A DNA stretch of 64,000 nt from Nakamurella deserti (GTDB lineage: Bacteria > Actinomycetota > Actinomycetes > Mycobacteriales > Nakamurellaceae), in assembly GCF_003260015.1 (NCBI RefSeq), contig NZ_QCXS01000002.1, positions 2,108,001 through 2,172,000 of the forward strand, given 5' to 3'. The first letter of the stretch is position 1, and each line of letters opens with the position of its first letter. Shown here one piece after another: positions 1,432-26,916 of the stretch. A model generated the notes under the pieces. That model was given only the letters and a program-made list of their open reading frames with translations. It was not told where the DNA came from and ran no database searches. The position numbers and the translations under genes were made by a program.

Positions 1432-2628
1432 TCAGCCCGCGCTGGGCTCCTCCGCCGGCTGCTGCTCGCTGCTGCTGGTGCCGCCTTCCGGCTCCTCGTC
1501 GGGCCGGATGTTGGTGGTCAGCGGTATCTCGTCCTCCGGCGGCGGGGACGTGGTGGTGGTCTCGGACGACGTGGGGTCGACGGGCGGATCGACCGGCGTC
1601 TCCACGGGGGTGGTCGGATCGACGGGCGGGGGCGGCGGCACGCTGGTCACCGGCTCCTCGGTCGTCACCGGCGGGGGTTGGACGATCACCGTGGTCGGGT
1701 CGGCCGGGGGCACGACCGGGACGGAGCCCGCGGGCGTCGTCGGGGCGGCGCCGCCGCCGTCCGAGGCCGGGTCGTTCGGAGCCGGAGCCGGAGCCGGAGC
1801 CTGAGTCGGAGCCGGAGCCTGAGTCGGCGCGGGCACCGTGGGCACGGTCCCGGAACCGGCGGGAGCGCTCGACGACGGCGTCGGGGTGACGGAGGACGAC
1901 GCCCGACTTGACTCGATCTTGGCCTGGACGCGGTCCAGGTCCGACTGCAGCGTTTCCTGCACGCTCTTGTCGGCTCCGGTGAGCGCCGCGTTGACGCTCT
2001 CGAGCGCCGCCTCGGCCTGCTCCGGGTAGCCGGCGTCGATGGCCTTCTCGGCGGCATCGATTGCCTGCCGCGCGTCGATGCTGGCCTTGACCTCGGCGGC
2101 GCGGTCCGACCACAGGATCTCGGTGACCGACCACAGCAGGGCGTTGTCGGGGGTCGCCGACCGGGCCCCGACGGCGGTGGAGCCCATCAGCAGCGCGGCG
2201 ATCGCGGCGGCGACGGCGATCGCCGGGCGCACCGAACGACGGCGCGTCGGCGCGGAGCGGATGACGGCGGCGGCGATCTGGGTGTCGACCGGCGGCGGCA
2301 GCGGCACCGCGTCGAGCTCCTCGCGCCAGGAGCGCAGTAGGGCGGCCACCTGGGCGTCGGACGCGACCTCCTGCGGGTCCCGCAGGTCCAAGAAAGCGGC
2401 GAGATCCTCGTTCGCGTCGACGGTGTCGTCGTTGGCGTCGTCGTCAGCCCCGGGGGGGACGTCGCCGGCCCCGACGGTCCGCAGCCAGCGTGTCGGCGCC
2501 TCGGCGGGATCGTCGAAGAGCGGAGTGCCGCGCAGCGCCTCGATGAGGGCGTCGTCGGCCCGGACCTGCGCCAGATCCACGGGGGTGTCGTCGCCGTCGT
2601 TCGGCGTCCGCGAGAAGAAGTCCCTCAC
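1432..2628 (-). CDS. rsdA: Anti-sigma-D factor, RsdA-like, single-pass membrane protein
   Basis: Predicted membrane-anchored anti-sigma factor that would hold SigD inactive. The 398-aa protein starts with GTG at 2628, overlapping the sigD stop in a GTGA junction, so the two are translationally coupled. The N-terminal ~130 residues are acidic and cytoplasmic and contain DDALIEALRG, similar to the sigma-binding segment of RsdA. One hydrophobic helix follows at about residues 135-153 (AIAVAAAIAALLMGSTAV). The extracytoplasmic part has a short charged helical region and then a long Pro/Ala/Thr/Glu-rich tail with PAPTQ repeats. Mycobacterial RsdA is about 300 aa, so this tail is long. Identity rests on context plus the N-terminal motif and topology; sequence conservation elsewhere is low. 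Confidence 0.8.
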   Translation of the reverse strand: MRDFFSRTPNDGDDTPVDLAQVRADDALIEALRGTPLFDDPAEAPTRWLRTVGAGDVPPGADDDANDDTVDANEDLAAFLDLRDPQEVASDAQVAALLRSWREELDAVPLPPPVDTQIAAAVIRSAPTRRRSVRPAIAVAAAIAALLMGSTAVGARSATPDNALLWSVTEILWSDRAAEVKASIDARQAIDAAEKAIDAGYPEQAEAALESVNAALTGADKSVQETLQSDLDRVQAKIESSRASSSVTPTPSSSAPAGSGTVPTVPAPTQAPAPTQAPAPAPAPNDPASDGGGAAPTTPAGSVPVVPPADPTTVIVQPPPVTTEEPVTSVPPPPPVDPTTPVETPVDPPVDPTSSETTTTSPPPEDEIPLTTNIRPDEEPEGGTSSSEQQPAEEPSAG

Positions 2629-3212
2629 AGCAGCTGCTCCGCGAGTCCGTCGTCACCGGCGACGATGGTGCGCAGCTTCGCCAGCGCGCGGTGCTGGGCG
2701 ACCCGCACGGCGCCGGCCGAGGTACCCAGGGCCTGGGCGGTCTCGTCCGCGGACATGCCGGCACCGACCCGCATGAGGAGGATCTCGCGCTGCGTGGCCG
2801 GCAACTCCCGGAGCAGCTCGTGCATCCGGGTGGCCACCGCGGCGTCGACGGCGACCTGCTCCGGGTTGGGATCGCCCGAGATCACGTCGGGAAAGTCGGC
2901 GACCGGGTTGCTCTTGGACCGGCCGGCGGCCCGGTGCGCGTCGACGATCTTGTTCGACGCGATGCCGTAGACGAAAGCGAGGAACGGGCGGCCCTCGCGC
3001 CGGTACGTGGGCAGGGCGTTGAGCACAGCCATGCACACCTCCTGCGCAATGTCGTCTGCCGTCATCAGAGAGCGGTGCCCGCCCGAGAGCCGGGCACGGC
3101 AGTAGCGGACGATCATCGGGTGGATACGTCCCAGGAGGGCCCCCACTGCGACGGTGTCGCCAGCCACCGCACGGTCGACGATGACGTCGAACTCGTCCGC
3201 TGCTGGATCCAT
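2625..3212 (-). CDS. sigD: ECF-type RNA polymerase sigma factor SigD
   Basis: Extracytoplasmic-function sigma factor of 195 aa. Region 2 is recognisable in IAQEVCMAVLNALPTYR and the following FVYGIASNKIVDAHRA; region 4 in LPATQREILLMRVGAGMSA plus the helix-turn-helix AQALGTSAGAVRVAQHR. Its 3' end overlaps the anti-sigma gene by four bases. In Streptomyces the gene in this position beside bldM and guaB is the sigma factor ShbA; in mycobacteria it is SigD. The start is the ATG at 3212 (MDPAADEFDVIVDRA). Promoter specificity cannot be read from sequence. Confidence 0.93.
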   Translation of the reverse strand: MDPAADEFDVIVDRAVAGDTVAVGALLGRIHPMIVRYCRARLSGGHRSLMTADDIAQEVCMAVLNALPTYRREGRPFLAFVYGIASNKIVDAHRAAGRSKSNPVADFPDVISGDPNPEQVAVDAAVATRMHELLRELPATQREILLMRVGAGMSADETAQALGTSAGAVRVAQHRALAKLRTIVAGDDGLAEQLL

Positions 3213-3730
3213 CGCTTGCGGGCACTCTCTCGTTACACCCAGTTCACACCGGGTCCGGGTCGGCGTTCTGTCACACGCGGATCCGCCGGCGGCCCCACTC
3301 CTTCGGGTGGTCCCGAGGGGCGTCGGGTCACGTCCGGCGAACTGTGCCTGATCTTTGTATCAGTGCGGCGCCGTCGATCTGGCCCGTTCGAACGAATCTG
3401 CAGAACGCCCCCCGGCTACGGCCGGCGGAGAAACCGCAGGTCATCGTGATCATGGACCGGGAGCCGCCGACAGCCGCCCGCGGTCCCGCATCCGCCACGG
3501 ACGCCGACGCGCCGACACCCGAACGGTGAGGCCCGGGCGCGTCCCGACGAGCCCGGCGGACCCGTGAGCGGCGCCGCTCCCCCGTCGTGACGACGGAGCG
3601 GCCCGGCCCTGTGACAGAGGCGACACCGGCGGCAACCCGCCACGCGGAGGGCGACGCCACCGGACCGCCGCACCGATGGCCCGGCGTGCCGCCGCGCGGC
3701 TCCCACCCGGGGGCGCGCCGGCGAGAGGAG
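3213..3730. other. Intergenic DNA upstream of sigD
   Basis: About 520 bp without a convincing gene. It begins upstream of sigD and contains a locally AT-richer patch near 3350-3365 (TTTGTATCAG on the plus strand) that could hold the sigD promoter, but I could not place a well-spaced pair of hexamers. Open frames here lack start signals and family resemblance. Confidence 0.5.
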
Positions 3731-4060
3731 GCCCTCGACAACGTCGTCACCACCGGACGGCCCCACGGTCACGGGCCGGACGGCACCCGACGACCACCCC
3801 GCGGGTGACGGGACGCCCTCGACGGCGTCTCGCCTCCCTGTCGGCCTGCCGTCAGACCCCGGACGGCACCCGACGACCCACCCCACGAGCGACGGGACAC
3901 CCTCGACAGCGTCATCGCCACCCGACGGTCCCGTCCGACGCCGGACGGCACCCGACGACCCACCCCACGAGCGACAGGACACCCTCGACGGCGTCGTCGC
4001 CACCCGACGGCCCGCCGTCCGACGCCGGCCGAAACCCGACGACGACCCCCCGGCCCGGTG
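3731..4060. repeat. Imperfect ~83-bp tandem repeat array
   Basis: Three clear units begin with GGACGGCACCCGACGACC at 3778, 3861 and 3943. A decayed fourth starts near 4027, and a partial unit precedes the array from about 3731. Spacings are 83, 82 and 84 bp. Shared internal blocks include ACCCTCGAC and GTCGCCACCCGACGG. Because the period is not a multiple of three and drifts by single bases, the array is unlikely to encode a repeated peptide, although long open frames cross it. It sits just beyond the 3' end of the response-regulator gene and upstream of sigD. Confidence 0.8.
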
Positions 4061-4103
4061 GGCGACGACGAACGACCGACCTGCGTCAGGCGATCCACCA
4101 GCG

Positions 4104-4700
4104 TCAGGCGACCAACCCGCGACGGAACCCGACCGCGACGGCCTGCGCCCGGTCGCGGGCACCGAGCTTGCGGAACAACCGGCGCGCGTGGGTCTTGACC
4201 GTGTCCTCGGACAGGAACAGCTCCCGGCCGATCTCGCCGTTGGACTGGCCCTGACTCATCCCGCGCAGCACCTGCAGCTCGCGCTCGGTGAGGTTGACCT
4301 GGCTGTCGTCGGCCGCCCTCGGCGACGGCAGCCGTGGGGAGGAGACGGTGTCGGCCAGGGCGGCGATGATCTCCGGCTGGGTGGCGTCCCAGCGGAGGAA
4401 GCCGCGGGCACCGCAGGCGATGGCGGCGGCGATGGACGCGGTGTCGTCGGGCGAGCCGAAGACGATGACCACCCCGTTGGGGTGCACCGCGAGCAGCCGC
4501 CGGGTGGCCTCGATGCCGCCGGTGAGGGCGCGCTGAGTGCCGATGAGCACGATGTCGGCACTCTCCCGCCCGTACCGGGCGAGCAGCTCGTCGCCGTCGG
4601 CGACACAGTCGATGGAACCGATGGACGGCAGGGCCGCCATCACACGGGTCAGGCCGTCACGGGCGCTTCGCCGTTCGTCGCAGATCAACACGCTGGTCAC
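4104..4700 (-). CDS. Orphan NarL/LuxR-type response regulator, BldM-like, degenerate receiver
   Basis: DNA-binding regulator of 198 aa. The N-terminal ~115 residues have the fold of a receiver (MTSVLICDE...), and the C-terminus is a LuxR helix-turn-helix with LTERELQVLRGMSQG, GRELFLSEDTVKTHARRLF and GARDRAQAVAVG. The helix-turn-helix and the position next to whiB, sigD and guaB match Streptomyces bldM, an orphan regulator of development. The receiver looks non-phosphorylatable: residue 54, where BldM has its Asp, is Gly (ADIVLIG), and the usual Thr and Lys of the switch are also absent (VFGSP, LRWDA). No histidine kinase is nearby. It is divergent from the whiB gene across a ~490-bp gap. BldM orthology is inferred from motif and synteny. 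Confidence 0.88.
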   Translation of the reverse strand: MTSVLICDERRSARDGLTRVMAALPSIGSIDCVADGDELLARYGRESADIVLIGTQRALTGGIEATRRLLAVHPNGVVIVFGSPDDTASIAAAIACGARGFLRWDATQPEIIAALADTVSSPRLPSPRAADDSQVNLTERELQVLRGMSQGQSNGEIGRELFLSEDTVKTHARRLFRKLGARDRAQAVAVGFRRGLVA

Positions 4701-5008
4701 TGCAACCTTCTTTCTCTGGGGATGTGCTGCAAACGGAGGAAGACAGCACGGGGTGATACGGCACGGGGTTCGACGGCGGCGCGGAACGGCATTTCCGCGG
4801 TGGCGTCGGCGGCATTTCCGGGTGAACCCGGGTCCGTCGACAGAGCAATCGCGACGGCCGTCATTCCGACCCGTTCGGCGGTACCGCGACGGGCGGTCGA
4901 CGGTGGGTGAATCCGCACCGGAAACCGATTCAGCACCTGTCCCCGACCGGACCGGGCGTCACGGCCGGACCCCTCGTGAACAGCGGCGGAAATGATTTGA
5001 TCTTGGTC

Positions 5009-5037
5009 TTGATGGTGACGGCCACGGACTCTAGGGT
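5009..5037 (+). promoter_or_regulatory. Candidate sigma-70-type promoter for whiB-family gene
   Basis: TTGATG at 5009-5014 and TAGGGT at 5032-5037 are separated by 17 bp, upstream of the WhiB-family start at 5195. This would leave a leader of about 150 nt. The gap 4701-5194 is also the control region of the divergent BldM-like gene, for which I see no clear promoter. Confidence 0.4.
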
Positions 5038-5194
5038 CAGTCGTGCGGGTCGTTCCGAGAGGTGGCCGGACCGCGTATTGCCGATCAGTTGCACAACGAC
5101 GTCTGGGCTCTGCACCAGCGTGCCGCTGAGGTGCCGCGTCCTGCGCGCGCCTTGCGCCACTCCGGTCAGCCCCGTGACCAGAGGAGTGAGTCGA

Positions 5195-5482
5195 ATGGCA
5201 GATACGCGACGCTTGCCCGGGCCGAATGCGGACCGGTGGGACTGGCAGCTGGATGCGGCGTGCCGGGGTATGGCCAGTTCGTTCTTCTTCCACCCCGAGG
5301 GGGAACGCGGCCCCGCCCGCGCCCGCCGGGAAGCCAACGCCAAGGCCGTCTGCATGGAGTGCCCGGCGATGCTGGCCTGCCGTCGGCACGCGATCGAGGT
5401 GCACGAGCCCTACGGCATCTGGGGCGGGCTGTCCGAGGGCGAGCGTCACCACCTCCAGGCGCTGGCGGTCGCGCGCTCCTGA
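5195..5482 (+). CDS. WhiB-family iron-sulfur transcriptional regulator
   Basis: A 95-aa Wbl protein. Four cysteines are arranged as in the family: one in AACRG, then the cluster CMECPAMLAC, which would ligate a [4Fe-4S] cluster. The signature turn GIWGG follows, then a basic or helical tail. Wbl proteins bind sigma-factor region 4 and control development, redox or virulence genes. The ATG at 5195 is chosen because GAGGAG lies 8 nt upstream and the protein then has normal length; the frame is open further upstream but without family similarity. Its place beside the BldM-like gene and sigD matches mycobacterial whiB3 and the equivalent Streptomyces gene, so a WhiB3-type identity is likely but not proven. 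Confidence 0.92.
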   Translation: MADTRRLPGPNADRWDWQLDAACRGMASSFFFHPEGERGPARARREANAKAVCMECPAMLACRRHAIEVHEPYGIWGGLSEGERHHLQALAVARS

Positions 5483-22769: not shown

Positions 22770-23700
22770 ACCCGGCCGGGCCTGGCGACCTTCGTCCGTT
22801 GTCCGGCCGGGGAGGAACCGCGCTCCGGCTCGGCCTCCACGGCCGAGCCGGGCCAGGCGACACCTGCCCAGGCTCCCTCTGTTGGCGGTCCAGACGGCGA
22901 GGTACCGCCGTCTGGCCTGCGGCGCTGACTTCCGTCGGCGGCCCGGCCGGGTTTCACCGGCCAGGGCTCGGCCTCCGCGGCCTGGCCCCGGCAGGGCGAG
23001 ACCTGCCCGGGCTCGCCCTGGCTACCTCCGTCGGCGGCCCAGCCGGGTCGAACCGCCAGCCGGCCTGCGGCGCAGGCTTCCGTCGGCGGCCCAGCCGGGT
23101 CGAACCGCCAGCCGGCCTGCGGCGCAGGCTTCCGTCGGCGGCCCGCCGGGGAGGAACCGCCAGCCGACCTGTGGCACTGACCTTCGTCGGGGGCCCGGCC
23201 GGGTCGGAGCGGCCAGGGCTCGGCCTCCACGTCCGGTCCCGGCCACGCGAGACCTGCCCAGGCTCGCCCTGGCGACCTCCGTCGCCGCCCCGGCCGGAGA
23301 GGAACCGCCAGCCGACCTGTGGCGCCGACCTCCATCGGGGGCCCGGCCGGGGAGGAACCGCCAGCCGACCTGTGGCGCCGACCTTCGTCGGCGGCCCGGC
23401 CAGAGATGAGCCGACTCCGGCTCGGCCTCTACGGCGGGGCCCCGACCAGGCGAGGCCTGCCCAGGGCTCGCCCTGGCGACCTCCGTCGGCGGCCCAGCCG
23501 GGGAAAACCCGCGAGCCGGCCTGCGGCGTCAACCTGCGGCGCCGACCTCCGTCGGTGGCCCGGCCGGACATGAAACGCGCCCCGGCTCGGCCGCCACGGC
23601 CGAGTCGACGTGTCCCACCGCCCGATCTCGACGGCCTGGTAGGACCCGCCGGCCGGCCTGCCCCGTCGACCTCCGTCGGCGGCCCGGCCGGTGGGACCGG
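22770..23700. repeat. Composite imperfect tandem repeat field (~52-53 bp units)
   Basis: Nearly the whole gap after the GH1 gene is made of degenerate units. The clearest run has CGTCGGCGGCCC-type blocks at 23029, 23081, 23133 and 23185, exactly 52 bp apart, and again at about 23280, 23333 and 23386 (53 bp). Each unit contains AACCGCCAGCCGRCCTG. Longer units carry an insertion built from GGCTCGGCCTC and GAGACCTGCCCAGGCTCG blocks. The period is not a multiple of three and open frames cross it in several frames on both strands, so I regard it as non-coding. Confidence 0.8.
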
Positions 23701-25129: not shown

Positions 25130-25569
25130 CCCTCCGGTCGACCGACGCACGACCGTCCGGCGCGGGCCTCCGAGGGACCGGTCGCACGTGTGGTAACTAA
25201 CGGCCGGTCTCAGGTCCGCCGGAACCCCGTCACTGACGCACGACCGTCGGCCCCGGACCCGTCGTCCGCGCGGCGCGGACCTCCGACAATCGGTCCCACG
25301 TGTGGACCGCCGGCCCGGCCTCAGGTCCGCCGGAACCCCGTCACTGACGCACGACCGTCGGGCCCGGACCCGTCGTCCCCGCGGCGCGGACCTCCGAAAA
25401 ACCGGTTTCACGTGTGGACCGCCGGCCCGGCCTCAGGTCCGCCGGAACCCCGTCACTGACGCACGACCATCCGGCCCGGACCCGTCGTCCCCGCGGCGCG
25501 GACCTCCGAAAAACCGGTGGCACGAGGGAAACCCACCGGCGAGGCCTCAAATCCGCCGGAACCCCGTCA
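25130..25569. repeat. Imperfect ~112-bp tandem array reaching glmM stop codon
   Basis: TCAGGTCCGCCGGAACCCCG-type blocks start at 25210, 25321, 25433 and 25547, spacings 111, 112 and 114 bp, with a decayed partial unit from about 25130. Units share GACGCACGACC, CCCGGACCCGTCGTCC, GGCGCGGACCTCCGA and, in most, a CACGTG. The last unit runs into the glmM stop: CCGGAACCCCGTCACTG is identical in the array and across the glmM 3' end. Single-base drift of the period argues against a coding repeat. Confidence 0.85.
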
Positions 25570-26916
25570 CTGCCGGCCGACCACCGCGGCGAGGCGTTCG
25601 GCGATTCCCGACGCTGCTTCCGCGGTCGGCGCTTCGACCATCACCCGCACCAGAGCCTCGGTGCCGGAGGGACGCAGCAGTACCCGCCCAGAGTTCCCGA
25701 GCTCGACCTCGGCGGCCTCCACGGCCTCGGCGACCTGGACCGAGGACGCGACGGCGGCCTTGTCGGCCACGCGGACGTTGAGCAGCACCTGCGGGAACTT
25801 GGTGACCACGGAGGCCAGCTCGGCGAGTGACGTGCCCGTCTGCGCCATCTGGGCCATCAGGTAGAGGGCGGTCAGCAGCCCGTCGCCGGTGGTGGCGTGC
25901 TGGGCGAGCACGATGTGACCGGATTGCTCGCCGCCGAGGCTGTAGTTGCCGGCGCGCATCTCCTCGAGCACGTAACGGTCACCCACACCGGTGGTTCGGA
26001 CCCGGATCCCCTCGGCCCGCATGGCCTGGTGGAAACCGAGGTTGGCCATCACGGTGGTGACGACCGTGGCGTCGGCGAGTTCACCGCGGCTGTGCATGGC
26101 GGTGGCGAGGATGGCCAGGATCGGGTCACCGTCGACGACGTTGCCGGTCGCATCGACGGCGAGGCAGCGGTCGGCGTCACCGTCGTGGGCGATGCCGAGG
26201 TCGGCGCCGTGAGCGACGACAGCGGCTCGGAGGTGGTCGAGGTGGGTGGAGCCGACGCCGTCGTTGATGTTCAGACCGTCGGGCTCCCCGGCGATCACGA
26301 TGACGGTGGCACCGGCTCGCCGGTACGCCTCGGGCGCGACCGTGGAGGCGGCGCCGTGGGCGCAGTCGACCACCACGGTCAGACCGGCCAACGGATGCGG
26401 GGTGACCAGCAGCAGGTGGTCGAGGTAGCGCCGGGCCGGCTCGTCCGCCGTGGTGATGCGGCCGATCCCGGCGCCCACGGGCAGCGGGTGACCGGATCCC
26501 ATGCCGGCCTCGATCGCGTCCTCGACGGCGTCGGGCAGCTTGACCCCGCCGGCACCGAAGATCTTGATGCCGTTGTCCGGCATCGCATTGTGCGACGCGG
26601 AGATGACCACCCCGAGGTCGGCCCCGAGGTGGTCGGTGAGGAACGCGACCGCGGGCGTCGGCAGAACGCCGAGCAGAATCACGTCGGTGCCGGCCGAGGC
26701 CAGGCCGGCGGCGACCGCCGCCTCCAACATCTCGCCGCTGGCCCGGGGGTCGCGACCGACGACGGCCGTGGCCCGTGTCCCTGACGCCAAACGGCCCTGC
26801 GCCCGGGCCTCGGACAGCACGAATGCCGCCGAGGTCGCGAGGCGCAGGGCCGTTTCGGGCGTCAGTTCGACGTTGGCCAGACCGCGTACTCCGTCTGTGC
26901 CGAACAGTCTCGCCAT
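25567..26916 (-). CDS. glmM: Phosphoglucosamine mutase
   Basis: Interconverts glucosamine-6-phosphate and glucosamine-1-phosphate for UDP-GlcNAc synthesis; 449 aa. [15 protein letters not shown] is the family N-terminus. The phosphoserine loop is [15 protein letters not shown], the metal loop [11 protein letters not shown], the sugar loop GGEQSGHI, and the phosphate-binding loop [13 protein letters not shown]. It lies 10 bp after rpsI, so it is probably co-transcribed with rplM-rpsI. Its stop codon is embedded in the last unit of a tandem repeat array. Confidence 0.97.

Follow-up and report, generated by a model that had tools for sequence, protein, structure and literature searches.

The closest described counterparts of the sequence analysed here are the intergenic minisatellites and VNTR loci of bacteria, noncoding repeats arranged head to tail, with units of tens of base pairs, restricted to a species and made of degenerate copies. 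VNTR loci are defined by copy-number variation between strains. In mycobacteria, MIRUs constitute one repeat family that occupies many loci. These mycobacterial interspersed repetitive units are mostly intergenic minisatellites (PMC3635867). The tandem array that we describe, at positions 3732–4043 of a stretch of 64,000 nucleotides of the Nakamurella deserti genome (the window), shares the general features of the first group, and is at most a candidate VNTR locus, the analysis covering one genome per species. Like MIRUs, it is an intergenic minisatellite of an actinobacterium and adjoins regulatory genes; unlike them, it is not dispersed as a family over many intergenic loci, its full-length unit being present at a single locus, while the other sampled arrays of the genome have unrelated units. 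Our search of the literature for tandem repeats of Nakamurella found nothing relevant. We consider that this array is, with high probability, a lineage-specific noncoding intergenic minisatellite, born of slippage or recombination in an array-rich genome and without a detected selected function.

Tandem Repeats Finder (TRF) resolves the array, noncoding and without assigned strand, into about 3.7 degenerate copies of an 82–84 bp unit; its variant solutions have a period of 82–84 bp, or 166 bp as a dimer, with 3.2–3.7 copies, 82–86% matches and scores of 389–429. When the whole 891-bp gap was shuffled 200 times with its dinucleotides preserved, the best score was 72, against 429 for the array, which is therefore not a product of chance: these are tandem direct repeats in the range of about 10–100 bp, as expected of a bacterial intergenic minisatellite. 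In an ungapped register, blocks of the GGACGGCACCCGACGACC type recur in copies that start at 3762, 3845, 3927 and 4011 (spacings of 83, 82 and 84 bp) and blocks of the CCCTCGAC type in copies that start at 3721, 3805, 3889 and 3971 (84, 84 and 82 bp), in agreement with the unit coordinates and the drifting 83/82/84 bp period of the original prediction. Three units (unit 1, 3775–3857; unit 2, 3858–3940; unit 3, 3941–4023) are bordered by partial decayed copies at the sigD-proximal end (3721–3774) and at the bldM-proximal end (4024–4054), likewise without strand. The central units 2 and 3 are 93% identical across 82 bp, while those at the ends are incomplete or decayed. Because the units differ among themselves, a simple duplication introduced during assembly is an unlikely source of the array. 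No older direct copies were found in the flank at 3213–3720, where the best match was equalled by 94 of 200 shuffles. Over 23 nt, this sigD-proximal flank (3317–3339) is 87% complementary to an array unit (3939–3961), a weak inverted match that was equalled by 2 of 200 shuffles.

The array lies 60 bp 3′ of the stop codon of a bldM-like response regulator gene of the NarL/LuxR type (4104–4700; Response_reg and GerE domains) and about 520 bp 5′ of a sigD-like, ECF-like sigma factor gene (2625–3212; Sigma70 regions 2 and 4), both on the minus strand; the neighbours had been rightly named beforehand as a developmental-type regulator on one side and a sigma factor on the other. Downstream of sigD comes an RsdA-like gene (1432–2628, minus strand), with a match to PF16751 slightly below the cut-off, and on the far side of the bldM-like gene are found a WhiB-like ORF (5195–5482, plus strand), recognized from sequence and conservation, and a groEL-like ORF. 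The gene order whiB, bldM-like, sigD is common to most congeners. The fetched stretch of the congener whose bldM-like protein is the nearest (94%; G007, stretch L006) shows no match to whiB in the interval from the bldM-like gene to groEL.

The conserved feature of this spacer is not the array, it is a SigD-type promoter-like motif at the start of sigD. CGAT is the -10 element of SigD promoters. The motif, GTAACG-N16-CGAT, stands at 3211–3236 on the minus strand, outside the array, which is about 500 bp upstream of it; 0.05 chance occurrences are expected in the window. A published study mentions GTAACG, at second hand, as the mycobacterial SigD consensus (PMC8583896). We collected 94 entries of bldM-sigD gaps from the genus and from order-level relatives (92 distinct, two congeners being in both collections), and GTAACR-N16-CGAT is present at the start of sigD in 86 of them, a conservation for which the start codon may account in part, since CGAT overlaps the in-frame ATG of sigD. 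Exact copies of TGTAACG-N16-CGAT are found at only two further sites of the genome, G000:C2:2853377-2853403 and G000:C3:270057-270083 (L211 and L212), which are possibly further SigD targets, judging from the motif.

A DNA search for the array across the genus recovered it in 1 of 17 Nakamurella genomes, that of the source, with other matches weak and limited to 22–55 bp; in the 16 others neither the array nor a long-period counterpart was found, weak matches of 22–51 bp at most being present. Within the source genome the full unit is at a single locus, the remaining matches there being weak and of 29–55 bp, and a dispersed repeat family is rejected on this ground. The bldM-sigD gaps span 36–894 bp across the 94 entries; those of the relatives are mostly shorter, with a sequence unrelated to the array, and in none of the 91 other distinct gaps did TRF find an array whose period exceeds 23 bp. 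The 518 bp that separate the array from sigD are themselves without relative, except for short matches and the motif at the start of sigD. It had been proposed that unrelated sequence in close relatives would make the array reading wrong: this is the sequence that the relatives have, yet the array itself is plainly present and stands. What unrelated sequence speaks against is a conserved regulatory role, and a conserved regulatory element is rejected, since neither the rest of the genus nor any other bldM-sigD gap examined contains the array.

The array is noncoding, as the original prediction had it. The G+C content at the three codon positions is flat in the array (0.74/0.73/0.81) as in the remaining gap (0.71/0.79/0.73), against a strong bias in the flanking genes (0.89/0.48/0.74 in sigD; 0.93/0.53/0.70 in the bldM-like gene), and the spacings of the copies break the reading frame; the array is thus noncoding and intergenic between two genes, as a bacterial intergenic minisatellite should be. 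That it could be a coding repeat, now degenerate, from a protein that was lost or left unannotated is scarcely credible: open frames of 109–248 aa do span it on both strands, but a G+C content of 75% leads one to expect long ORFs by chance, the relatives' gaps hold no homologous frame, and the two tested frames across the array had no Pfam match, which, with the flat codon-position G+C and the non-triplet spacings, led us to reject a coding origin as strongly disfavoured.

Three readings had been offered for the array, a structured transcript, a protein-binding array and an expanding minisatellite. In the first, read-through RNA from the bldM-like gene would fold over the array, and would stabilise the 3′ end or attenuate read-through into sigD. 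The bldM-like stop codon is 60 bp before the start of the array, an 8-bp dyad (consensus GCCGTCCG-N4-CGGACGGC) is present at the unit junctions, and, compared with ordinary shuffles, the 330-nt fold reaches a z of -3.2 on the minus, sense strand and of -1.8 on the plus strand. The repeat is lost in such shuffles. Compared with 100 synthetic arrays, assembled from shuffled units in which about 12% of the positions had been redrawn, z is only -1.5 on the sense strand, a value matched or passed by 6 of the 100, and -2.3 on the plus strand (0 of 100). Over the four junctions the dyad is disrupted in half of the cases, with 28% of cells unpaired and no pair changed on both sides, in a test that has low power as it involves only four copies and relatives without homologues for comparison; compensatory helix changes, the mark of a structured RNA, are thus absent at these junctions. 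The array is also missing in all relatives, sigD is served, 3′ of the array, by a promoter-like motif of its own, and the gap contains no terminator-like site. Rfam 15 gives four matches in 3000–5300; each falls far short of its gathering score, and the array contains none of them. We therefore regard a structured transcript as unlikely, the repeat-keeping control and the dyad without compensatory change weakly disfavouring a selected RNA structure. Folding exceeds expectation only mildly, if at all, and makes a weak case for a structure under selection; a selected hairpin is rejected, as are a known RNA family and an intrinsic terminator. The other noncoding-like arrays fold with z values from -8.3 to +2.0. 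The most structured of those sampled, at G000:C3:904397-904735 (L148:4397-4735), consists of 4.5 copies of 77 bp and has a plus-strand z of -8.3 against shuffles.

Alternatively, a DNA-binding regulator might occupy a series of sites in the array and act on sigD from about 500 bp upstream. Most copies do share identical blocks such as GGACGGCACCCGACGACC, and genes for regulators stand on either side, but the set of blocks was found nowhere else in the genome or genus, identity spans the whole unit and not a short site, and half of the junctions have a broken dyad; on this evidence such a protein-binding role seems highly improbable. It is the minisatellite that fits best, the central copies being the most alike, the ends decayed and the dyad devoid of compensatory changes. 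Replication slippage or unequal recombination would have duplicated a unit of some 83 bp in the bldM-like/sigD spacer, most likely once the species had split from the sampled congeners; the copies have come to differ since then by substitutions and indels of 1–2 bp. The array stands outside the conserved promoter-like element of sigD and upstream of it. The array is most likely neutral. Against neutrality may be set the minus-strand fold, at -3.2, and the plus strand, which beats all 100 shuffled-unit arrays, and a young, species-specific function would be compatible with the missing conservation; that the array is a young structured spacer proper to the species, whose copy number would adjust how much transcription from the bldM-like gene reads through into sigD, is nonetheless very unlikely. 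Of the expanding minisatellite we retain the noun: the copies have already diverged in the one genome of this species that was covered.

Taken alone, the array matters little, being one among many noncoding minisatellites in its genome; more useful are the SigD-type motif as the conserved feature of the spacer and the excess of arrays in the species. We counted as noncoding-like those arrays with a period of at least 30, a score of at least 150 and a flat codon-position G+C, a proxy under which arrays with a period divisible by three may partly be genic. Twenty stretches of 20 kb of the source genome (400 kb; 464 kb with the window) contain 11 such arrays, about 28 per Mb, and six congeners have 9 in 1.2 Mb, or 7.5 per Mb, so that the species appears to bear about four times as many as these sampled congeners. 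With the window left out, the binomial p is 0.004, a value that is indicative only, as some of the data had been inspected before the thresholds were chosen. The excess is not a matter of G+C content alone, because two congeners of similar G+C (G002 and G004) have 0 and 2 arrays per 200 kb. The sampled units are mutually unrelated, save for two neighbours and one 26-bp match. The window itself contains four noncoding-like arrays. The neighbours in question, at 23027–23206 and 23273–23413, have units of 52–53 bp and are 86% identical over 124 bp, and a further array, at 25158–25572, with 3.7 copies of 112 bp and a score of 598, outscores that at 3732–4043.
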